Assembly: GCF_000233455.1 (NCBI RefSeq)
Contig: NZ_JH376420.1
Coordinates: 396,176-460,175, forward strand
Length of the DNA stretch: 64,000 bases
DNA from: [Clostridium] citroniae WAL-17108
GTDB lineage: Bacteria; Bacillota; Clostridia; Lachnospirales; Lachnospiraceae
Direction of reading: 5' to 3'
Under the pieces are notes generated by a model. It had not been told where the DNA came from. It saw nothing but the letters and a program-made list of their open reading frames with translations, and did not search any database. Below, piece after piece: positions 38,982-49,759 of this stretch; within the stretch, counting starts at the first letter, position 1, and each line of letters opens with the position of its first letter. A program made the position numbers and the translations under genes.

Positions 38982-41078
38982 TCACTCAGAATCCTTAGCT
39001 GCGGCCCTTGCCTCTACCTCACGCTTTTGTACATCGCCGGGAGCCTGCTCATAACGGGTAAACTCATAGCTGTAAAGACCGATGCCGCCTGTCATGGAAC
39101 GCAGGTCTGTGTTATAGCCAAAAAGCTCAGACATCGGAATATCCGCCTCTATCACCTGTTTGCCGTTGTGGTCTGAGTTCATTCCCAGAACACGGCCTCT
39201 CCTGCGGTTTAAATCGCCCATAACATCACCGGTGAACTTATCAGGAACCGTCACCTTAAGGGATGCGATCGGCTCCAGAAGCACTGGATTGGCATCCATA
39301 AAGCCCTGTTTAAAGGCCAGGATTGTTGCCATCTTAAATGCCATTTCAGAGGAGTCCACAGGATGATAGGAACCATCTAAGAGGGTTGCCTTTAATCCAA
39401 CCACCGGATATCCTGCAAGAGGTCCTTTCACAACGCATTCCTGAAGTCCCTTTTCCACTGCCGGGAAGTAGTTTCTCGGAACAGAACCGCCAAATACCTT
39501 TTCCTCAAATACAAACGGTGTCTCAAGATCGCCGGATGGCTCAAATTCCATAATAACATCACCATACTGGCCGTGGCCGCCGGACTGTTTCTTATGTTTA
39601 CCCTGAACCTTAACCTTCTTGCGCAGGGTCTCACGGAATGCAAATTTAGGCTTGGACAGGATAATGTCCACCTTGTAACGGCTCTGAAGCTTGCTTACAA
39701 CAACATCCAGCTGCTGGTCGCCGATGCCGTAGAGCAGTGACTGGCGGTTTTCAGCATCATTGACAACCTTCAGGGTCAGGTCTTCTTCCATCATACGTGC
39801 CAAAGCGGTGGATACCTTGTCATCCTCGCCCTTGTTGGCTGCCTTGTAAGCCATATAGGTATACGGTGTGGAGGTCTGCGGCTTATGGTACACAATGGGA
39901 GCTGTGCGCACCGCCATGGTATCGCCTGTCTGGGTAACGGTAAGCTTTGCAACAGCGCCGATATCGCCTGCCCTTAACTCCTGTACCTCGATCTGCTCCT
40001 TGCCGCGGAGTATATAAAGCTTTCCAATCTTCTCTTCCGCATCCTTATTAACATTATATACCATGGTGTCCCCTTTCAGGGTACCGGTACAGATCTTCAT
40101 CAGTGAATATTTGCCGATAAAGGGATCCACAATGGTCTTAAATACCCTTGCGGACAGGGATACATCATCATTGTACTTGGCAGTAAAGCGCTCGCCTGTG
40201 GATACGTCCACGCCAATGCACTCAAAATGGTCAGGTGACGGGAAATACTTGTCAATGGCCTGAAGCAGTACCTTAAAGCCCTGGCAGTTGATGCCGGATC
40301 CCATCATAACAGGTACAATGTCGCCTTCGATCACATGCTCGCGCAGAGCGGTGGAAATCTCCTCCTGAGTAAATTCTTCGCCCAGGAAATAGCGCTCCAT
40401 ATATTCTTCATTAGTCTCGGCAACAGCCTCGATCAGAGCATCTCTTGCAATGGTCAGGTTCTTCTGAACATAATCAGGGATCTCGCACTCTTCATAATCG
40501 CTCAGCTTAGTAAAACGGCGGCCGGCCATCTTAACCACGTTGACGAAACCTACAAATTTTTCATTCTCACGGATCGGCAGCTGGAACGGCGCGATCTTAC
40601 GTCCAAAACGGGTCTCCATCTTCACTACCAGTTCACGGTAGCTGGCATGGTCATCATCCATGTTGGTAACAAAGATCAGCCTGGGCAGGTTGTACTTTTC
40701 ACACATCTCCCATGCCTTCTCTGTTCCCGGTTCAATGCCTGCCTTACAGTTTACTACGATAATGGCTGCATCAGCAACGCTGATCGCCTCCTCTACTTCT
40801 CCTACAAAATCAAAAAATCCCGGCGTATCCAGAAGGTTAATCTTAATTGGTCCGTCCTCGCCTGCATATTCCAGCGGGATCAGCGTGGTGGAAATAGAAA
40901 ACTGTCTCTTGATCTCTTCTTTGTCATAATCGCTGATGGTATTGCCGTCAGGCACCTTTCCCATGCGGGTCGTCATGCCTGTGATCAGCGCCAGTGCTTC
41001 CGCAACAGTCGTCTTACCTGCGCCTCCATGTCCAAGTAATACAACGTTGCGGATTTGTTCAGTCCCATATACGTTCAT
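38982..41078 (-). CDS. Elongation factor G-like translational GTPase (second EF-G type)
   Basis: 698 residues with all five EF-G domains. GTPase motifs: LGHGGAGKTT (G1), LLDTPGFFDF (G3) and FVTNMDDDH (G4, with TNMD instead of the usual NKMD). Later parts include GSGINCQGFKVLLQAI, SGGHGQYGDVIMEFEP (domain IV) and the C-terminal MTGGIGLYSYEFTRYE. The sequence is the divergent EF-G2/FusA2-like group rather than the housekeeping EF-G in the str operon. Its role, perhaps recycling or stress translation, is not known here. AGGAGGGAAATAT precedes the ATG. Confidence 0.88.
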   Translation of the reverse strand: MNVYGTEQIRNVVLLGHGGAGKTTVAEALALITGMTTRMGKVPDGNTISDYDKEEIKRQFSISTTLIPLEYAGEDGPIKINLLDTPGFFDFVGEVEEAISVADAAIIVVNCKAGIEPGTEKAWEMCEKYNLPRLIFVTNMDDDHASYRELVVKMETRFGRKIAPFQLPIRENEKFVGFVNVVKMAGRRFTKLSDYEECEIPDYVQKNLTIARDALIEAVAETNEEYMERYFLGEEFTQEEISTALREHVIEGDIVPVMMGSGINCQGFKVLLQAIDKYFPSPDHFECIGVDVSTGERFTAKYNDDVSLSARVFKTIVDPFIGKYSLMKICTGTLKGDTMVYNVNKDAEEKIGKLYILRGKEQIEVQELRAGDIGAVAKLTVTQTGDTMAVRTAPIVYHKPQTSTPYTYMAYKAANKGEDDKVSTALARMMEEDLTLKVVNDAENRQSLLYGIGDQQLDVVVSKLQSRYKVDIILSKPKFAFRETLRKKVKVQGKHKKQSGGHGQYGDVIMEFEPSGDLETPFVFEEKVFGGSVPRNYFPAVEKGLQECVVKGPLAGYPVVGLKATLLDGSYHPVDSSEMAFKMATILAFKQGFMDANPVLLEPIASLKVTVPDKFTGDVMGDLNRRRGRVLGMNSDHNGKQVIEADIPMSELFGYNTDLRSMTGGIGLYSYEFTRYEQAPGDVQKREVEARAAAKDSE

Positions 41079-41239
41079 ATATTTCCCTCCTGTACATAAT
41101 ATTTAAGCCCATGCGTATATTTTACTAAATTTTTCAGAATTTTTCAAGCTTTTTATATCATTTGCACAACATTCTTATATGAACAATCTGAAAACCCTTA
41201 AAAGCCTTGTAAATGCTAATAGAATCAATAACCATCCAT

Positions 41240-41509
41240 CTACCAGCTCTTCTCCAGCGGCATATTCCAGTCCAGGCTAAACGGATTGAAAGCGCTTGTC
41301 TTCAACTGTTCATAGATATATCTGCGGTCAGAAGCATCGGTTCCTGACCAAGACGCATACCCTGCCAGGTAACTTTCCACAAACTCATCCCAGGAACTGA
41401 TTTTTGTCTGAATAGTTTTTGCTGTCTCAAGGGATTTATCCAAGGTTTCCTCAATGGTATAGTATCCTGCGATATAATAAAATCCCAGGTTTGACATGGA
41501 TTGCCACAT
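41240..41509 (-). CDS. Short DUF1266-like protein, probably truncated
   Basis: 89 residues resembling the C-terminal part of DUF1266 proteins: TIEETLDKSLETAKTIQ, WDEFVESYLAGYASWSG and the closing PFSLDWNMPLEKSW. Full-length members are usually above 200 residues, and no upstream frame restores the missing part within the next few hundred bases, so this is a remnant or a short variant. The start lacks a convincing ribosome site. Function is unknown. Confidence 0.5.
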   Translation of the reverse strand: MWQSMSNLGFYYIAGYYTIEETLDKSLETAKTIQTKISSWDEFVESYLAGYASWSGTDASDRRYIYEQLKTSAFNPFSLDWNMPLEKSW

Positions 41510-41591
41510 AAAATCCTAGCCTCTTCATAAGAAAACCCCCTCTATGTAATTGCCTTATTCTATCTTATTATACTATTTCTGAAATACAAAA

Positions 41592-41614
41592 GCCACCGGA
41601 ATTTATCCAGTGGC
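41592..41614 (-). terminator. Terminator at the end of the TRAP operon (distal)
   Basis: GCCACTGG/CCGGTGGC arms on the minus strand followed by TTTTG. Confidence 0.6.
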
Positions 41615-41679
41615 CTATGTGTACAATCTTATCTTTTTCCCGCCGGAATTGTATGAATAGCATTGGGGAATCCGGCAAA

Positions 41680-41715
41680 GGGGAATAGCAGAATGGATAC
41701 CATTCTTCTATCCCC
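41680..41715 (-). terminator. Terminator-like hairpin just after the TRAP permease
   Basis: Arms GGGGATAGAAGAATGG and near complement with a two-base loop, then TTTG on the minus strand, directly after the permease stop. Confidence 0.55.
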
Positions 41716-41722
41716 CGCTTTA

Positions 41723-43711
41723 TTAACCTTGCTTCTGCCGTATCAACAGTCTATTCTGGGATAGTCCTGTCACTACCATCACCGTTACACCGATCACATC
41801 TGTCAACGTAGTTGGTATTACCATCAAAATGGCGGCCACTGCAACAACGGCCCTTTGCCATCTCTGCATTTTTGTAAGCATCCATCCCTCTACCGCCGTG
41901 CTAAGCAGCATAACTCCTATCACCGCAGTAACGATCTTTTCAATAACCCAAATAGTGACTAGGCCATCGCAAAACAGAAGGTCAGGTGAATTAATGAATA
42001 TCATGGGAACCAGAAAGCCGCCCAACGCTAATTTAAATGCCTGCCATCCTGTCTTTCCCGGATCAGCATTTGCTAATCCGGCCGCCGCATAAGCTGGTAT
42101 TGCCACTGGCGGAGTCACATTAGCCAATAAACCAAAATAAAAAACAAACATATGCGCTGCCAAAACCGGCACATTAAATCCACTGATAAGAGCAGGGGCA
42201 GCTACGGTTGAAAGCAGCATATAGACAGATATGGTAGGCAGTCCCATCCCCATGACAATACAGATAACTGCGATAAGTATGCAGGAAATCGTGAAGTTTC
42301 CCCCAGCCAATTTCAATATGACGTTACTCAGTGTCTGAGTAATACCCGTCAAATTACAGACTGCCGTAATCATATTGATACCACAGCACATTGCCGCTAC
42401 GCTCACCAACCGTTTGCCGGACAATTGCAGGCACTGCCATATATCTTTTAAACCCAAACGCGTCTTTTTCTTACACGCAGCTATGAGGACACAAAGTGGT
42501 ATGGCACGAACTCCCACCCAGGTAACCGTGTAGCCAACGCACAGCATAACTACAACAAATATAAACGGCAGGAATAGATATCCATCTTCTTTGAGAACCA
42601 AAAGCAGCTTCGGGCAATCCTCTTTTGCAAGCCCCCTAAGGCCCAGTTTACAGGCTCTAAGATGTACCATTGCAAAGCAGCCCGTATAATATAATAAGAC
42701 GGGTACAATGGCTGCCAGACATATCTTGCTGTAAGCGATTCCTGTGATATCCGCCATAATAAAAGCACTGGCTCCCATAATAGGAGGCATAAGCTGACCG
42801 GCTGTGGATGACACTGCTTCCACAGCTCCTGCGAATTCCGGTTCGTAACCTGTCTTTTTCATTAACGGAATGGTAAATGCGCCTGTAGTTACCACATTGC
42901 TAACTGCATTGCCGCTAATTGTGCCAAACAATGCGCTGGTTACTACGGAAACTTTTGCCGGGCCTCCGGCAGACTTTCCGGCAATGGAAAGGGCAAAATC
43001 ATTGATAAACTGCCCTGTTCCCGTTTTTTCCATAAATGTTGCAAAAATAAGGAACAGACTAAGCACCCCGGCCACCGTACCCACATTAGATCCAAACAGT
43101 CCCTCACTGGTCAATAAAAGCTGGGAAGCGATCCGCTTTATGCTAAGGCCTGAATGCTTGAGAGCTCCCGGAGCATATTTTCCAAAATAGGCATATGCCA
43201 AAAATATTGCGATAATGATCACAATACTGGTTCCTCCAGATCTGCGTATTGCTTCCATAACTGTCAGTACCAGCAGTATGCAAAGAAATATTTCCAATTT
43301 AGAAGCAATACCGCTTCCCGTTGTAATTGAGCGGTGATTTGAGATCACATAGCCACATACAACCAGGACCGTTGCTATCATTATAAAATCATACCATCTT
43401 GGCAGCCTTCCTGTATCCTGTTTGCGCAATGCATACAGCAGAAAGATCATAGTAAGACAAAAGCACATAAATATGGCTCTGTGCATGAGCGCTTCAGGGG
43501 CGCCCACCGCACAGGTAATGTAGACATACAGGCAGAGTATTCCCCCCATAATATCCGATACCTTATATCTCCAGTCCTTACTTTCCTTCTCTACCGCAGA
43601 ATCCCGATCATATTTATCCAGTAATTCCTGCTGAGTATCTGCATCCACTGTTTCAACAGAACTTAAGGAAACCGTATCCTGCCCTAAAGTTTTATTACCA
43701 GCATCTGCCAT
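41723..43711 (-). CDS. TRAP transporter fused permease (4TM/12TM, TAXI type)
   Basis: About 662 residues and some 16 membrane helices. It is a fusion of the small and large TRAP permease subunits, with the DctM-type core showing NVGTVAGVLSLFLIFATFMEK, LFGTISGNAVSNVVTTG, AVSSTAGQLMPPIMGASAF and MGMGLPTISVYMLL. It drives secondary uptake of an organic solute with ions. The ATG at 43711 has GGGGGAT upstream; an in-frame ATG at 43729 has none. The TAXI binding-protein gene ends about 20 bases before. Last gene of a five-gene operon with purine-nucleoside enzymes. Confidence 0.92.
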   Translation of the reverse strand: MADAGNKTLGQDTVSLSSVETVDADTQQELLDKYDRDSAVEKESKDWRYKVSDIMGGILCLYVYITCAVGAPEALMHRAIFMCFCLTMIFLLYALRKQDTGRLPRWYDFIMIATVLVVCGYVISNHRSITTGSGIASKLEIFLCILLVLTVMEAIRRSGGTSIVIIIAIFLAYAYFGKYAPGALKHSGLSIKRIASQLLLTSEGLFGSNVGTVAGVLSLFLIFATFMEKTGTGQFINDFALSIAGKSAGGPAKVSVVTSALFGTISGNAVSNVVTTGAFTIPLMKKTGYEPEFAGAVEAVSSTAGQLMPPIMGASAFIMADITGIAYSKICLAAIVPVLLYYTGCFAMVHLRACKLGLRGLAKEDCPKLLLVLKEDGYLFLPFIFVVVMLCVGYTVTWVGVRAIPLCVLIAACKKKTRLGLKDIWQCLQLSGKRLVSVAAMCCGINMITAVCNLTGITQTLSNVILKLAGGNFTISCILIAVICIVMGMGLPTISVYMLLSTVAAPALISGFNVPVLAAHMFVFYFGLLANVTPPVAIPAYAAAGLANADPGKTGWQAFKLALGGFLVPMIFINSPDLLFCDGLVTIWVIEKIVTAVIGVMLLSTAVEGWMLTKMQRWQRAVVAVAAILMVIPTTLTDVIGVTVMVVTGLSQNRLLIRQKQG

Positions 43712-43732
43712 GATATCCCCCTTCACCATAGA

Positions 43733-44830
43733 TTATTCCGTAACCCAACCTATTTCTTTAAAATACCGGACAGCACCGGGATGCATTTCCACATATGGGT
43801 CATTGTAAGTCAGTTCAAATACATCTTTGGCCGTAGTGCCGGCAAACAGACTGTGCATCCCTTCAAGTTCCTCCCAATGCTCTACAATCAGGCGTGTGAT
43901 CCAATACACCTCTTCTTCATTGCAGGATGCCTTGCATGCCAAACCTGCCACGCTGACTACGCTGGACAGCTCCTCTTTTATCTCCCCCTCATAGGAGCCT
44001 GCCGGTATGACTGCTTTTGAATATCCGATTTCAGCGTTAACAATTGCTTCAACCTGCTCCTCTGTAAAATCGATCAGATAAATATCTTTTGTGGCAAACA
44101 GCTGTGAATAATTAGTCATAGGGACTGTCCCTGTCATAATCATGGCATCTGCCTGGCCATTTTGAATAAGCTCAACGCCATCTGCCGGGCTGGAATATTC
44201 AGCTTTAAACTTATAGCCGTCTGCTTCCGTATAAAAACCGCAGATTCCCATAAGATCATGGCACATATTTTCATTTCCGCTGCCCGCGGTGCCTACCACC
44301 ACCTTTTTCCCAACCAGGTCATCCAAACTGTTAATTTCAGAACCTTTACGGCACGCAATCTGAACAATGCTGGAAGAATACATCATAACCAGCTTTGCAT
44401 CCAGGTCAACCGGTGCATCCTTGTAGCTCCCTATACCGTTTTTGGCGCAATATAAATAGTAACTCACATTAAATCCATAGTCTCCGTCCCCGGCTTCCAT
44501 TAAGTAAGGATTTTGGGCTGAACCGGCTGTAACCTGGGCTGTACAGGTAGAATCCGTATATTCAGAAATAATTTGGGCAATCGCACTCATGCTGAGCTGT
44601 GCATTCCCTCCTGAGGAAGCTCCCAACATTGTTATAAAGTCCGGCCAGTCATAACTGTCCGTAGTTTTGTTTAGTTCCTCATTTGAGGGTTCCGTGGCTT
44701 TATCTGTTGCTGCCACACTGGTTTCAGGGACTTTGGATGAAGCAATCGGCTGACCTGTACCGGAATTGCCGCAAGCTGTCATTGAAATCATGGTTACTAA
44801 CGCCAATCCCATCCTGAATATTTTTTTCAT
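43733..44830 (-). CDS. TAXI-family TRAP solute-binding lipoprotein
   Basis: About 365 residues. The start at 44830 follows AAAGGAGG; upstream in-frame codons lack a ribosome site. The signal peptide ends in a lipobox (SMTAC), then a Ser/Thr-rich linker leads to the TAXI fold: GASSGGNAQLSMSAIAQIIS, AGSAQNPYLMEAGDGDYGF, DLVGKKVVVGTAGSGNENM and YIVEHWEELEGMHSLF-like C-terminus. TAXI proteins deliver their ligand to the fused permease encoded next. The ligand cannot be read from the sequence; genomic company suggests a nucleoside-related compound. Confidence 0.9.
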   Translation of the reverse strand: MKKIFRMGLALVTMISMTACGNSGTGQPIASSKVPETSVAATDKATEPSNEELNKTTDSYDWPDFITMLGASSGGNAQLSMSAIAQIISEYTDSTCTAQVTAGSAQNPYLMEAGDGDYGFNVSYYLYCAKNGIGSYKDAPVDLDAKLVMMYSSSIVQIACRKGSEINSLDDLVGKKVVVGTAGSGNENMCHDLMGICGFYTEADGYKFKAEYSSPADGVELIQNGQADAMIMTGTVPMTNYSQLFATKDIYLIDFTEEQVEAIVNAEIGYSKAVIPAGSYEGEIKEELSSVVSVAGLACKASCNEEEVYWITRLIVEHWEELEGMHSLFAGTTAKDVFELTYNDPYVEMHPGAVRYFKEIGWVTE

Positions 44831-44871
44831 TTTTATCCTCCTTTGGGTTCTTTCCCCTAACAACATTTGTA

Positions 44872-45690
44872 TTAAAAATACCACTCCGGCCTTATGCCAA
44901 AAAATCCTTTTTCAGGCAAACCGGCGCACAAACAATCCGTTCCTTCCGGCAGCCTGCCGGCCAGATTTTTTAAAACGCGCTCTACCTTGTCTTCCATACC
45001 GTTCTTCTCATAGGCTGTCATCAGCCCCTCATCACCGCTTTGATAAATGGCAGGGCCCATTCCTGTACACATATTAATTACCATTGAAAGAGATGCATAA
45101 CACATTCCAGCTTCCTTGGCAAGGACCAGTTCAGGAAACATGGGGGTTCCTATTATATCCCCTCCTATGGAATTATAATATCGAACCTCCGCAGGTGTCT
45201 CAAACCTGGGACCTTCAGTACAGATAAATGTGCCAGTGGAACAGACCGGTATCCGTTCATCAGCGCAGGCTTCAAGGAGGTATCCGCGCAGATTCCCACA
45301 GAAGGGCTCACTCATGTCCACTCTAACCCAGCAGGCATGATCTTCAAAAAAACTGAGTACCCGCTTTTTCGTAAAATCCATGGCATCATCCGGCACCACA
45401 AAATCTCCCGGACGGATATGAGGATTACAGGAACCGATTGCATTTTGGGAAATAATCTGTTTTACTCCCAATTTTTTCAATCCCCATATGTTGGATCGAA
45501 AATTTACCAAGTGGGACGCCATATCTGCATGATCTCCATAGCGCAGTATCACAGCTGTATTTACTCCATTTACCAGGCCTGTATACACCTTTGCCTCTCC
45601 CCATGGCGTAGAAACCATTTGAGACTGTCTGTTTTCCAAAAATCCTTCGGACATATGGCTTGTTATAATGCCGAACTTACAATAACTCAT
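44872..45690 (-). CDS. MTAP/PNP-family nucleoside phosphorylase, probably for 6-oxopurine substrate
   Basis: 272 residues of the methylthioadenosine phosphorylase family: AVILRYGDHADMASHLVNFRSN (phosphate and base region), NAIGSCNPHIRPGDFVVPDD, TGTFICTEGPRFETPAEVRYY and MFPELVLAKEAGMCYASLSM. After MCYA the adenine-specific TDYD of MTA phosphorylases is replaced by INMC, so the base-recognition Asp pair reads Asn and Cys, as in inosine-type enzymes. I therefore expect cleavage of methylthioinosine or inosine rather than the adenine form. Its start overlaps the deaminase stop by 4 bases, which supports this. Confidence 0.85.
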   Translation of the reverse strand: MSYCKFGIITSHMSEGFLENRQSQMVSTPWGEAKVYTGLVNGVNTAVILRYGDHADMASHLVNFRSNIWGLKKLGVKQIISQNAIGSCNPHIRPGDFVVPDDAMDFTKKRVLSFFEDHACWVRVDMSEPFCGNLRGYLLEACADERIPVCSTGTFICTEGPRFETPAEVRYYNSIGGDIIGTPMFPELVLAKEAGMCYASLSMVINMCTGMGPAIYQSGDEGLMTAYEKNGMEDKVERVLKNLAGRLPEGTDCLCAGLPEKGFFGIRPEWYF

Positions 45691-47012
45691 AACACTTTCC
45701 TCCTGTAGTGATCCATGATGGCTTTTTTCATCAACGTTTCGTCTTCCTTGATCACCTTACCTTCCGTATACACCAGATTCCCATCAATAAAAATTGAATC
45801 AACAGACGATCGGTCCATATAAAATACAACATCAGAAAGAAAACGTTCTTTATTATATCCCAAAGGGTGCCATGGCTTAACTAAAAGAACATCTGCTGCA
45901 GCCCCCTGCTCCAGCACTCCAATGTTACCCATTCCCAACACTTTGGCACATTCTGAAGTAGCCATCTTTACAAGTTTTTCATTTGATAATGCCTGATCTT
46001 TGCCTTTCAGACGACTGGCTAACGCCGCCATTTTGATTTCCTGGAACATGTCCAGCGTATTATTGCTCAGCATACTGTCAGTGCCCAGCCCTACATTAAT
46101 CCCATTTTCCAGCATCTTCTTAACTGGAGAAATACCATTTCCCAGTTTCGCATTGCTGACCGGACAGTGGATAACATTGCTGCCGGTACGCCTGAGTATG
46201 GCTATATCTTCATCGTTCATTTGTACACAATGTATGAGTACTGTGCGTGGAGATAATACTCCCAGATCAGCCAGCCATTGGATAGGACGCATTCCCGTAC
46301 GCGCTTTTATAGTCATCTCTTCATCCAGCGTTTCTGCAGCGTGGATTATGAACCGTTTCCCAATCATCTTTGACTTTTCATAGGTCTGCTTGATCATCCG
46401 TTCCGTGCAGCTATAGGTTGCATGGGCGCCTAAAAAGAATTGGATCCTATTATCTTTCTGATATTTTTCCTTGTACAGCTGCGTACTGTCTACAATGGAA
46501 TCATAATTAGGCTTTCCATTTTTTCTGTATTCCGGAGAATTAGCCATTCCGCCTGCCAGACACCGCATCCCTGCCCGGGAACACGCATCTGCCATCAGGC
46601 CTGCTTCATATCTGGTGCAGTCACAAATACAGGTAGTCCCCCCCTTCAGCATCTCAAATACAGACATCTCGTTATTCTTTTCAATATCTTCCTGTGTAAG
46701 GGTGGATGTATAGGGAGCCAATTCCTCTGCCCACTGGGTAAAGTCTTCCGCATCGCTGATGGCGCGGTAACTATTCAGGTTACTGTGTCCATGACCATTG
46801 ATCAGCCCAGGCATAGCGATCCGGTCCGATGCATCATATTCCATATAACCATCTCTCAGCAGCTCCTGTGGTGCATCCCTTCGCTCCCCAACCCAGTCGA
46901 TCTTGCCTTCTGACATGAACAGCACTGCATCCGTATAAAAATGCCCTTTTTTATCTGCAGTATATAAATGTTTACAGATGATCTTATACTTTGTATTTAC
47001 CATTTGTTCCAT
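45687..47012 (-). CDS. Amidohydrolase, MTA/S-adenosylhomocysteine deaminase type
   Basis: 441 residues of the metal-dependent amidohydrolase barrel. Metal and catalytic motifs in order: MPGLINGHGHSNLNSYR (HxH), LGAHATYSCTE, FIIHAAET, HCVQMNDEDIAIL and VGLGTDSMLSNNTLDMFQEIK (Asp). This is the order of MTA/SAH deaminases, which turn the 6-amino group into 6-oxo; guanine-deaminase or chlorohydrolase relatives are alternatives. The ATG at 47012 follows GGAGGT; the frame is open further upstream without a site. It overlaps the hydrolase gene before it by 29 bases and the phosphorylase after it by 4. Confidence 0.88.
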   Translation of the reverse strand: MEQMVNTKYKIICKHLYTADKKGHFYTDAVLFMSEGKIDWVGERRDAPQELLRDGYMEYDASDRIAMPGLINGHGHSNLNSYRAISDAEDFTQWAEELAPYTSTLTQEDIEKNNEMSVFEMLKGGTTCICDCTRYEAGLMADACSRAGMRCLAGGMANSPEYRKNGKPNYDSIVDSTQLYKEKYQKDNRIQFFLGAHATYSCTERMIKQTYEKSKMIGKRFIIHAAETLDEEMTIKARTGMRPIQWLADLGVLSPRTVLIHCVQMNDEDIAILRRTGSNVIHCPVSNAKLGNGISPVKKMLENGINVGLGTDSMLSNNTLDMFQEIKMAALASRLKGKDQALSNEKLVKMATSECAKVLGMGNIGVLEQGAAADVLLVKPWHPLGYNKERFLSDVVFYMDRSSVDSIFIDGNLVYTEGKVIKEDETLMKKAIMDHYRRKVL

Positions 47013-47679
47013 AATTGCATACCTCCAAAGGCGCATTTGTCTTAATCCAATGTGCGGTGTTAATGTTGTCGGCAAATGGGGTTCCATCTGGAAGCAGCGG
47101 ACAGTCATGCCCCGGTATTATATAATCTACAATGCCAACCATCCGGCCCAATGACGATAAATAAAAGGGTGTACCCCAAATATCCTCCCTGCTTTTTATC
47201 GCATCTGCACACAGTAAGATCCTTTTTTTGTCATATACCGCTAACAAAGAGCATGAACCCTTTGTATGTCCGGGCGTATGTATCATTTCTATGCCTGACA
47301 TGATCCCCATCCTGGGTTTGCGGACTACGATCAGATTAGGTTGACGCAGTATCCATAATCGGTAGGGCTCCGGTACAGGATCGCCTGGTTTGCCGCTCTC
47401 TTCTATTTCTTCCTGATGTATGTACCACTTCGCCTTTTTAAAAAGATCAATATTCCCTATATGGTCAAAATGAAGATGGCTGATTATTACGGAATCAATG
47501 TCATCGGGACTCAGATGATGATCAGCCAGTTTCATCAAAAGTCCCGGACGGTCATTAAACGCGCCTGTATCAAACAACAGATTGCGTCCGTTATCCTGAA
47601 TCAGCACGACCGTACTCCATCCCAGCCATCCTCTCTCGCTGCCTCCCCCAATCCCATAAAAAAGTCCTGTGACCCTCAA
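46984..47679 (-). CDS. Metallo-beta-lactamase-fold hydrolase (lactonase-like)
   Basis: 231 residues with the dinuclear metal motif SHLHFDHIGN (HxHxDH, about residue 66), a further His in TPGHTKGS and Asp in LLCADAIKS, and PGHDCPLL. It resembles N-acyl-homoserine-lactonase-type enzymes, but the substrate is unknown. The start is TTG at 47679 with GGGGGTG seven bases upstream. First gene of the operon; its end overlaps the amidohydrolase. In this setting it might hydrolyse a lactone or phosphoester produced from the sugar part, but this is speculation. Confidence 0.8.
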   Translation of the reverse strand: MRVTGLFYGIGGGSERGWLGWSTVVLIQDNGRNLLFDTGAFNDRPGLLMKLADHHLSPDDIDSVIISHLHFDHIGNIDLFKKAKWYIHQEEIEESGKPGDPVPEPYRLWILRQPNLIVVRKPRMGIMSGIEMIHTPGHTKGSCSLLAVYDKKRILLCADAIKSREDIWGTPFYLSSLGRMVGIVDYIIPGHDCPLLPDGTPFADNINTAHWIKTNAPLEVCNYGTNGKYKV

Positions 47680-47732
47680 ATCAATTCACCCCCTTCCCGC
47701 CCCTGCCAAATAGCATCCTATGGACCAAATAG

Positions 47733-47761
47733 ATTATAGCATGATGCAGGCGGATTCCTTT
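47733..47761 (-). promoter_or_regulatory. Candidate promoter of the MBL-amidohydrolase-TRAP operon
   Basis: A perfect TATAAT on the minus strand at 47733-47738 but only a poor -35 around 47756-47761, consistent with a promoter that needs an activator. Confidence 0.45.
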
Positions 47762-47797
47762 GACGCATACGAGCCATAAAGATGATTTTAAATGTAA

Positions 47798-47877
47798 ATT
47801 ACCTGCCTTTTTCAATTGTCATTAGGTAAAAATAATAGTATAATGGCCTCAATCTGAAAGGACATGCAGGTAATTAC
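47798..47877. repeat. Inverted 9-mers flanking the Crp/Fnr promoter
   Basis: ATTACCTGC at 47798-47806 and its exact complement GCAGGTAAT at 47866-47874. Each has a further GTA/TAC on the outer side. They bracket the promoter of the regulator and lie between the divergent genes. Confidence 0.7.
47816..47844 (+). promoter_or_regulatory. Promoter of the second Crp/Fnr gene
   Basis: TTGTCA, 17 bases, TATAAT. Confidence 0.75.
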
Positions 47878-47879
47878 AA

Positions 47880-48575
47880 ATGAGTTATAACTATTTCTGG
47901 CGAAATGGATATTTTGAATCATATCGTGATCAGATTTTGGAGGCCGGCGGACAATTTAAAACCTTCCCTGAAGGCATGGACATAGGTCCTTATATGAAAT
48001 CTCACCGAATGGCTATTTATATTGATTGCGGACGTGTAAATATACGTGTTGTGCGAAATGACGGCAGTATCCACAATGTGATGAGTTATGGCAAGGGTAA
48101 TATAATACCGATCGCCAACAGGCATGAAGAATTTATCTTAGCTCCCTATTGGCGCACGGAACCCGCTTACGGAGATATGAAAGCCATCGTATTTTCAAAA
48201 ACTTTATTATGGGATTTAATGCGCTCAAATCAGGATTTTTCAGAACGTGCAGATAAAGAAATTGCCGGACGTTTGGCCTATCTCACCTTTGTACCAGTAT
48301 TATACCAGGATGGTGAATGTATCAGCCGCGTATGTAATTATCTGATACATTTGGATATTTGTAAAAATATGGATAATACCATACCTAATACCACCCAGGA
48401 AGAGCTGGCCGATGCCGTGGGTAAATCCCGAAGCCAGGTTGTACGCGCCTTATCTCAGCTGCGAACTGCCGGTGCCATAAAAACACAGAGAAAAGACATT
48501 ATCATTAAGGACCGCAGGATATTGATGCGGTATGCTACAGATATCATAAAAGATCTGGAGGACCAGGTATTTTAA
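47880..48575 (+). CDS. Crp/Fnr-family regulator of the divergent TRAP/nucleoside operon
   Basis: 231 residues: a barrel-type sensor (about 1-140) and a C-terminal winged helix with TQEELADAVGKSRSQVVRALSQLRTAGAI (about 177-205). The sensor is divergent and shows no cAMP signature. It is divergent from the MBL-amidohydrolase-phosphorylase-TRAP operon, a typical place for a pathway-specific regulator. Its ribosome site (GCAGGT or AAAGGA) overlaps one of the inverted 9-mers, so translation or transcription could be self-limited. The sensed ligand is unknown. Confidence 0.82.
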   Translation: MSYNYFWRNGYFESYRDQILEAGGQFKTFPEGMDIGPYMKSHRMAIYIDCGRVNIRVVRNDGSIHNVMSYGKGNIIPIANRHEEFILAPYWRTEPAYGDMKAIVFSKTLLWDLMRSNQDFSERADKEIAGRLAYLTFVPVLYQDGECISRVCNYLIHLDICKNMDNTIPNTTQEELADAVGKSRSQVVRALSQLRTAGAIKTQRKDIIIKDRRILMRYATDIIKDLEDQVF

Positions 48576-48645
48576 TTTGATCCTTGTTTTATTCCCCTTT
48601 TTTACTAATATACATAAAAGCGTAAAAGTTTAACGTGATAAAGTA

Positions 48646-48674
48646 TTGACATTTAAGCCCACATGGCTTACACT
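48646..48674 (+). promoter_or_regulatory. Promoter of the aroF-tyrA-aroA operon
   Basis: Perfect TTGACA, 17 bases, TACACT, about 60 bases before aroF. No T-box signature is visible here. Confidence 0.65.
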
Positions 48675-48736
48675 GGAACGTGTTTGAAAATGGCGGGAAG
48701 TATTTCCCTGTATGACATAATAAGGAGTAATATAAT

Positions 48737-49759
48737 ATGATTATCATCATGAAACCAAACGCTTCCGAGGAAGCAGTGAGAAAGGTCACACATATCATTG
48801 AATCCAAAGGGCTTCAGGTTCATCTGTCCAAGGGTTCACAGGTTACAATTGTAGGCGTTGTGGGCGATAAGACCAGGCTTCAGGGCAGCAACATTGAAAT
48901 CAGCGAGGGAGTGGACAAAGTGGTGGCTGTCACCGAGTCCTACAAGCTGGTCAACAAGAAATTCCATCCCGAGGATTCCATTGTTCCCGTGGGCAACACC
49001 CATATCGGGCCTGGAACCATGACGGTGATGGCCGGTCCCTGCGCCATTGAGTCCAAGGAACAGCTGATGGAAACCGCATTTGCAGTTAAAAAAGCAGGCG
49101 CCACCTTCCTGCGGGGAGGCGCATACAAGCCCCGCACCTCTCCTTACTCCTTCCAGGGTCTGGAAGAAGAAGGACTCAAGTATATGAAGGAAGCCAGGGA
49201 AGCCACAGGTCTTAATGTGATCTGTGAGGTCACCAGCCTTCATGCAATTGAGGCTGCCTCCCGGTACGTTGACATGCTCCAGATCGGCGCCAGGAACATG
49301 CAGAACTTTGAACTTTTAAAGGAAGCCGGCAAATCCGGTATCCCTGTATTGTTAAAACGTGGTTTGTGTGCTACCATAGACGAATGGCTGAATGCTGCTG
49401 AATACATCATTTCCGAAGGGAACCCAAATATCGTACTGTGCGAAAGAGGTATCCGTACCTACGAAACCTCCACCAGAAACACTCTGGATATCAGCGCGGT
49501 TCCCGTGATCCGGCAAAAGAGCCATCTGCCCATTATTGTGGACCCCAGCCATGCAACCGGCGTAAGGGCCTATGTGGAGCCGCTGGCCAAAGCATCCATT
49601 GCAGTGGGCGCAGACGGACTGATGATCGAAGTACATCCCTGCCCTTCCAAGGCACTGTCTGACGGACCTCAGTCCCTGACATTCCCGGCCTTTGAACAGC
49701 TGATGGCTGATCTGAAACCGTATGCGGATCTGGCCGGACGTACCTTTGAAGCAAAATAG
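48737..49759 (+). CDS. aroF: 3-deoxy-7-phosphoheptulonate (DAHP) synthase
   Basis: First step of the shikimate pathway: phosphoenolpyruvate plus erythrose 4-phosphate. 340 residues: an N-terminal ferredoxin-like regulatory domain (1-75, KVTHIIESKGLQVHLSKGSQ) and a barrel with VMAGPCAIES (about 98), GAYKPRTSPYSFQGL (about 132), QIGARNMQNFELL, LKRGLCATIDEWL and VDPSHATG. This is the type I-beta class with a feedback domain, as in Thermotoga. AAGGAG precedes the ATG. First gene of aroF-tyrA-aroA. Confidence 0.95.
   Translation: MIIIMKPNASEEAVRKVTHIIESKGLQVHLSKGSQVTIVGVVGDKTRLQGSNIEISEGVDKVVAVTESYKLVNKKFHPEDSIVPVGNTHIGPGTMTVMAGPCAIESKEQLMETAFAVKKAGATFLRGGAYKPRTSPYSFQGLEEEGLKYMKEAREATGLNVICEVTSLHAIEAASRYVDMLQIGARNMQNFELLKEAGKSGIPVLLKRGLCATIDEWLNAAEYIISEGNPNIVLCERGIRTYETSTRNTLDISAVPVIRQKSHLPIIVDPSHATGVRAYVEPLAKASIAVGADGLMIEVHPCPSKALSDGPQSLTFPAFEQLMADLKPYADLAGRTFEAK

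Follow-up and report, generated by a model that had tools for sequence, protein, structure and literature searches.

The stretch analyzed here, referred to as the window, comprises 64,000 nucleotides of the [Clostridium] citroniae WAL-17108 genome (contig NZ_JH376420.1, forward-strand positions 396,176 to 460,175), and it contains a five-gene unit that combines a metallo-β-lactamase (MBL)-fold hydrolase, an amidohydrolase, a protein resembling methylthioadenosine (MTA) phosphorylase (MTAP), and a TAXI-type TRAP importer. The open reading frame (ORF) list bore out the gene arrangement read in a first-pass annotation, with five co-oriented genes on the minus strand that overlap or nearly abut and one divergent regulator on the plus strand (Table 1), and Pfam and NCBIfam placed the six products in the families that it had named (Lactamase_B, Amidohydro_1, PNP_UDP_1/MTAP-like, TAXI, TRAP_fused, and HTH_Crp_2). 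The amidohydrolase ORF is open to 47108, and the start used in Table 1 is the likely one, as it fits the homologues; from that start the gene overlaps the MBL gene by 29 nt. The amidohydrolase and MTAP-like genes overlap by 4 nt, and 3 nt separate the TAXI and permease genes, an arrangement that suggests a single transcript. The lipoprotein start of the TAXI protein is likely at 44830. Terminator-like sites show no real excess in the region, with 7 observed and 6.1 expected by shuffling. Between the gene for an elongation-factor-G-like protein and the permease gene, at 41240-41540, there is no ORF of at least 100 amino acids, and by eye a remnant of a minus-strand gene is possible there.

Table 1. 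Positions in the window of the five-gene unit, its regulator, and associated features
Feature	Position	Strand	Description
MBL-fold metallo-hydrolase	46984..47679	-	231 aa, TTG start, first operon gene
Amidohydrolase, MTA/SAH-deaminase-like ATZ/TRZ group	45687..47012	-	441 aa from likely start
MTAP-like protein, PNP/MTAP superfamily	44872..45690	-	272 aa; clade-specific Y51, R123, T182-P183
TAXI-family TRAP solute-binding protein	43733..44884	-	383 aa from GTG; probable lipoprotein
Fused TRAP permease	41723..43729	-	668 aa
Crp/Fnr-like regulator	47880..48575	+	231 aa, divergent from the five genes
Perfect 10-nt inverted repeat, candidate operator	47797-47806 / 47866-47875		Divergent promoter region
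Sigma-70-like site	47816-47844		Divergent promoter region; 11/12 consensus matches
Terminator-like stem-loop	41590..41616	-	3' of permease
Stretch present in window, absent from G007	41179..48609		Flanks 40990-41178 and 48610-48777

The enzymatic core of the unit recurs in another phylum. MBL, amidohydrolase, and MTAP-like genes stand in the same order as in the window at all nine Hyphomicrobiales loci found (L076 to L084), one on a Neorhizobium galegae megaplasmid that came from a plasmid search and eight in genomes that came from a profile scan of genome contigs. Since it recurs at nine of nine loci, this gene order is not due to chance, and the core is a genuine module across phyla, shared by plant and soil bacteria that are only distantly related to the window organism. 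On the megaplasmid, the MTAP-like and amidohydrolase genes are adjacent, preceded by the MBL gene, and their products are 48.5% and 39% identical to those of the window; for the Hyphomicrobiales members overall the values are 46 to 49% and 37 to 40%, respectively. The window and Hyphomicrobiales MTAP-like sequences formed one clade with support of 100/99, and so did the amidohydrolases, with the same support. A first scan of genome contigs with the window MTAP-like protein alone gave no match, and a two-row MTAP-like profile then yielded the eight genomic loci from 75 pattern matches, in a scan that could find only members keeping one of two short motifs. No module locus was found in a scan of viral contigs. 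All nine loci carry genes for an SBP_bac_5/Opp-type binding protein and two permeases upstream; these genes of a peptide-type ABC importer are directly upstream of the core, except at L079, L081, and L083, where they are about 2 to 3.3 kb away. Wherever the fetched stretch extends far enough, the upstream region also encodes a LysR regulator, a GHL6/GH42M protein, and a further amidohydrolase. We met no name for these clusters in the open-access PubMed Central (PMC) literature, among the matches listed.

The MTAP-like protein falls within the superfamily of purine nucleoside phosphorylases (PNP) and MTAPs by sequence (Pfam PNP_UDP_1, 120.5 bits) and by fold, with all 50 listed Foldseek matches being MTAPs at template-modeling (TM) scores of 0.66 to 0.75 by query length, obtained with a model of modest confidence (mean predicted local distance difference test score [pLDDT] of 66.2, predicted TM score [pTM] of 0.70). 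It scores below the equivalog cut-offs of TIGR01694 (204.5 versus 274.85) and of NF006599 for methylthioinosine (MTI) phosphorylase, or MTIP (159.1 versus 223), and every MTAP or deaminase model listed (all 11 for this protein, 25 of 40 for the amidohydrolase) gave a score under its curated cut-off. In Schistosoma MTAP (PMC5147791), the phosphate site is made of S12, R54, H55, A88, and T207, and the ribose site of N205, M206, D232, and Q289 together with A88, H131, and V246; H131, which lines the ribose/methylthioribose site, and Q289 are contributed by the neighboring subunit. These residues were matched to the window protein by our own alignment, and the counts that follow leave out the query copy and L009, which is the window protein itself. 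The phosphate-site arginine is retained in the module clade as Arg50, and the rest of the Arg-His plus Thr signature is replaced: Tyr51 is present in 10/10 module rows versus His in 33/33 MTAP-type outgroup rows, and Pro183 in 10/10 versus Ser or Thr in 58/58 outgroup rows. The residue beside it, Thr182 in all ten module rows, is Met in 57 of the 58. The 5' pocket has changed as well, with Arg123 in every module row at the position of the neighbor-subunit His, which is His in 32/33 MTAP-type and Phe in 25/25 PNP-type rows; this alignment is ungapped against archaeal MTAPs. The phosphate-site loop that holds the Ser or Thr (S12) differs in an alignment that is gapped there.

Two further positions were considered and dropped. 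Asn206, where adenine-specific MTAPs have Asp, is presumably a mark of 6-oxopurine use as in MTIP, and it is found in 10/10 module rows and also in 57/58 outgroup rows, so it does not distinguish the module. Loss of the threonine equivalent to human Thr93 was set aside as evidence that phosphate is no longer bound, as Asn stands there in 25/25 PNP-type rows and also in Schistosoma MTAP (PMC5147791). A second MTAP-like protein, 33% identical to that of the window, is encoded elsewhere in the genome (L068:5118-11536, G000:C3) beside a HAD hydrolase, a PnrA/Bmp-type ABC importer, and a LacI regulator; these genes may form a nucleoside-uptake unit of their own. A similar MTAP-like protein is carried by the genus member G008.

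The amidohydrolase retains H74, H76, H224, E227, H261, and D312 in 10/10 module rows, the complete metal and catalytic set of HxH, His, His, and Asp plus a catalytic Glu that we take to be that of MTA/SAH deaminases (SAH, S-adenosylhomocysteine). Its closest relatives by sequence and fold are these deaminases (4f0r, 4dyk, and 4gbd), the structure model (mean pLDDT of 72.5, pTM of 0.77) recovering the fold and not the pocket. The scores are again below the equivalog cut-offs (263.5 versus 540 for NF006549; 171 versus 779 for NF012037). The glutamate of the P-x-E motif is replaced by Thr102 in all ten module rows, versus Glu in 18/18 outgroup rows, five of which, the second amidohydrolases, aligned less surely. 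We take the lost Glu to be the ribose-diol contact of TM0936. These counts exclude L092, L069, and L071, which are identical to other rows, as well as second copies of module rows and L009.

The MBL-fold enzyme has a complete metal site (H68xHxDH73, H138, D159, and H191) that is invariant in 10/10 module rows, and it too is below the equivalog cut-offs of the lactonases it resembles (53.6 versus 375 for AiiA; 61.9 versus 325 for pyridoxolactonase). Of 84 matching records in the plasmid collection, 60 were listed, and the top MBL bit scores in that list were 142 for a Shinella protein and 136 for the Neorhizobium module MBL, followed by 106. The Shinella protein is 61% identical to the Neorhizobium one and is encoded on a plasmid of Shinella sp. 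HZN7 (L097:893-13196) in a stretch with genes for the module-type MBL and LysR, an ABC importer, a GHL6/GH42M protein, and an enolase-superfamily protein; within the 25 kb read around the MBL gene there is no amidohydrolase or MTAP-like gene. The company of GHL6-type and enolase-superfamily proteins hints at sugar-acid or lactone chemistry, in which the substrate of the MBL enzyme would be a lactone or ester derived from a sugar. A related MBL protein (37%) is encoded on a Thermus thermophilus plasmid (L096:3280-7452), directly 3' of a TRAP transporter and 5' of the gene for the 5-oxoprolinase subunit PxpA.

The importer and regulator were assigned clearly. The TAXI protein scored 188.1 bits against TIGR02122 (cut-off, 84.35) and the permease 612.2 bits against TIGR02123 (cut-off, 320.65), and HTH_Crp_2 was the sole Pfam match of the regulator at an E value of ≤0.001. 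Aligned to chain 8s4j, taken as the glutamate-binding protein VcGluP from its numbering, the TAXI protein has changed three of the four glutamate-contact positions checked (Y45, Q93, and E125 to Ala, Val, and Ser), retaining Ser75; these residues are not defining for all TAXI proteins. The genome as a whole is rich in TRAP systems, with 32 DctM matches, 26 of them with an E value of <1e-70. We found no nucleoside-type TAXI-TRAP system in the open-access PMC literature, among the matches listed.

It had been proposed that a search of relatives for the same neighborhood would be a test of the unit, and by that measure the expectation failed: conservation lies in another phylum, and a unit conserved in relatives was rejected on the distant matches and large profile-score gaps found there. 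A profile of the module amidohydrolase gave 705 bits for the window and 316 for the next sequence among 397 genomes of the family, in which only the window genome has it, and the MTAP-like profile gave 486 and 216 bits among 391 genomes of the class. The best non-self match of the MTAP-like protein reached 143 bits and 33% identity in 195 relatives and, among the matches listed from 398 genomes of the phylum, 211 bits and 43%, with shorter matches of up to 45%; the best for the TAXI protein was 28% identity in 116 relatives. Canonical residues occupy positions 51, 123, and 183 in all 29 sequences inspected (L039 to L067) of 274 matching phylum genomes. Within the order, a deaminase-type gene also adjoins an MTAP-like gene in two other genomes (L069 in G164 and L071 in G145). 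Both genes of these pairs are diverged, and the MTAP-like proteins have His and Thr and not the Tyr and Pro of the module.

The unit occupies a variable slot in the genus. Its flanking genes, for the elongation-factor-G-like protein and DAHP (3-deoxy-D-arabino-heptulosonate 7-phosphate) synthase, are both present in 17/17 genus genomes; they lie on one contig at most 8 kb apart in 11, including three in which they are <400 bp apart (G006, G007, and G011), 22 kb apart in G005, and on different contigs in the remaining 5/17. Junctions were compared in G001, G007, G008, G014, and G015 (L135 to L139). In G007, 130 bp separate the window flanks given in Table 1, indicating that the stretch between them was inserted in the window genome or lost in G007, and we infer acquisition by the window genome rather than loss elsewhere. 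Other genes fill the slot in G008, G001, and G015, and it is nearly empty in some genomes. That of G008 holds a permease, another amidohydrolase, a MerR-type regulator, and an AGCS symporter; that of G001 holds selD, a class-V aminotransferase, and others; and that of G015 (L137:875-2965) includes one ORF that matches iron-only hydrogenase large and small subunits followed by rubrerythrin and rubredoxin-like domains, a fused protein. The G+C content is 41 to 47% in 1-kb steps across the island versus 52 to 57% in the next four steps downstream, and a step of 41.5% also occurs upstream, at 38 kb.

Taken together, the site residues of the MTAP-like, amidohydrolase, and TAXI proteins argue, short of proof, for a 6-oxopurine-type product whose sugar is altered and whose 5' group is possibly anionic. 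With moderate confidence, we propose that the unit is an acquired catabolic island through which an unusual, perhaps anionic, purine-type nucleoside is imported, deaminated, and cleaved at its glycosidic bond. The TAXI-TRAP importer would take up this nucleoside or nucleoside-like compound and the amidohydrolase would remove its exocyclic amino group; the MTAP-like enzyme, a putative phosphorylase, would then split the resulting 6-oxo compound at its glycosidic bond, either hydrolytically or, using a rebuilt phosphate site, phosphorolytically. The MBL enzyme may hydrolyze a lactone or ester, whether in this substrate itself or in the sugar product formed from it, and the Crp-like protein probably regulates the five-gene unit. 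Import followed by base release, as first suggested, keeps its footing in a unit of importer, deaminase-type, and nucleoside-cleaving-type proteins with a divergent regulator, and the particular substrates named then, MTA/MTI or a plain purine nucleoside, are weakened by the clade-wide changes that the MTAP-like protein shows in its 5' pocket and phosphate site, the lost amidohydrolase Glu, and a separate MTA/SAH nucleosidase in the genome. The view that the combination is not a described unit held, in that no description was found in the open-access PMC literature, among the matches listed. A bolder version, which we entertain tentatively and would not favor, is that the MTAP-like clade is no ordinary phosphorylase and that its rebuilt sites cleave, perhaps hydrolytically, a carboxylated purine nucleoside delivered by the paired deaminase, for example a nucleoside uronate or 5'-acid, with the MBL enzyme opening a sugar lactone. 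The futalosine pathway was considered because of its carboxylated 5' group (PMC6302742). It was set aside, as these groups presumably make menaquinone otherwise.

Several observations weigh against the proposal of an imported, deaminated, and cleaved nucleoside. The module rows are not ten independent observations, since nine of them are close relatives of one another, and the amidohydrolase tree carries a long-branch warning that includes the window row. The MBL enzyme of the window is 32 to 38% identical to the module MBLs, a figure from alignment, and the Shinella MBL slightly outscores the Neorhizobium module MBL though its cluster is without the other two enzymes. Within the MTAP-like protein, HMMER gaps Arg123 away from the human MTAP His, and a reading of the pocket from the AlphaFold models was dropped, as the pLDDT is <50 at residues 103-129 and 182-184. 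The role of the Glu at the Thr102 position is presumed. The anionic 5' group, perhaps present, rests on one residue and on the substrate habit of TRAP importers in general.

It is unlikely, though possible, that the unit simply salvages MTA, 5'-deoxyadenosine, or adenosine in the classical way, with deamination preceding phosphorolysis as in Pseudomonas aeruginosa and with a dedicated importer. The closest families by sequence and fold are the MTA/SAH deaminases and MTAPs, a series of deaminase and MTIP is described (PMC6302742), and two mtnA-type isomerases encoded elsewhere in the genome score over their cut-off and could take up the sugar phosphate. The clade-wide changes at the phosphate site, the 5' pocket, and the amidohydrolase Glu point the other way, as do the missed equivalog cut-offs; the genome already has an MTA/SAH nucleosidase (190 bits versus a cut-off of 74), and mtnA and mtnK are absent from the five-gene unit, as is the mtnK-mtnA-ald2 operon of the dihydroxyacetone phosphate shunt as a whole. 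Quite unlikely, too, is that the amidohydrolase hydrolyzes a non-nucleoside heterocycle, such as isocytosine, a triazine, a pterin-like compound, or a glycosylated pyrimidine, the MTAP-like protein being a PNP-fold enzyme turned to another use. This idea arises because the structural neighbors that follow the nucleoside deaminases for the amidohydrolase include an isocytosine deaminase and triazine hydrolases, and because a GHL6/GH42M-type protein and a further amidohydrolase are encoded in the Hyphomicrobiales clusters; yet nucleoside deaminases remain the best matches, the MTAP-like protein retains Asn206 and the E159-G-P-R stretch, and deaminase-type and MTAP-like genes are also paired in the two other genomes of the order. 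It is improbable that the substrate is SAH or a relative, deaminated to S-inosylhomocysteine and then cleaved, with Arg123 holding the homocysteine carboxylate. The deaminase family does include SAH deaminases, and Arg123 is at the 5' pocket by alignment, but the module amidohydrolase is without the Glu kept in 18/18 outgroup rows, the genome encodes an MTA/SAH nucleosidase of its own, and the MBL enzyme would be left without a role. That the genes are fortuitous neighbors collected in a slot that carries other cargo in G001, G008, and G015 is highly improbable, given that they overlap and that the same three enzymes occur in the same order at 9/9 loci in another phylum.

If the carboxylated-nucleoside version is true, an undescribed catabolic pathway would be common to Hyphomicrobiales and the window bacterium, with the importers swapped. 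The three-enzyme unit would be misassigned to methionine salvage, and the models that its parts match best are those of MTAP, TRZ/ATZ-hydrolase, and lactonase. The clade-specific residues allow a cheap and direct test, which, if positive, would reveal a nucleoside-like compound as a new nutrient and widen the substrate classes of TAXI-TRAP importers by a new one.

Four known systems come close to the window unit. The Hyphomicrobiales clusters share the core gene order but have neither TAXI-TRAP nor Crp; in their place are an ABC importer (SBP_bac_5 and OppB/C-type) and, where the fetched stretch reaches, LysR, the GHL6/GH42M protein, and the second amidohydrolase. The VcGluP TAXI-TRAP glutamate transporter (PMC11574862) is likewise a TRAP-type importer with a TAXI binding protein, from which that of the window differs in three of four contact residues. 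A resemblance to the system of PMC12632272 is that both are accessory islands that include a transporter gene and serve the use of exogenous carbon derived from nucleosides, and CRP is among the regulators of that system in Escherichia coli; the window unit is without mtnK, mtnA, and aldolase genes, and its transporter and enzymes are different. The MTA deaminase and methylthioinosine phosphorylase of P. aeruginosa, which convert MTA to MTI and then to hypoxanthine (PMC6302742), belong to the same two enzyme superfamilies and follow the same logical order. Compared with that pair, the module enzymes form clades of their own, in which the Glu position, the phosphate site, and the 5' pocket have changed, and the window unit adds an importer and an MBL enzyme.

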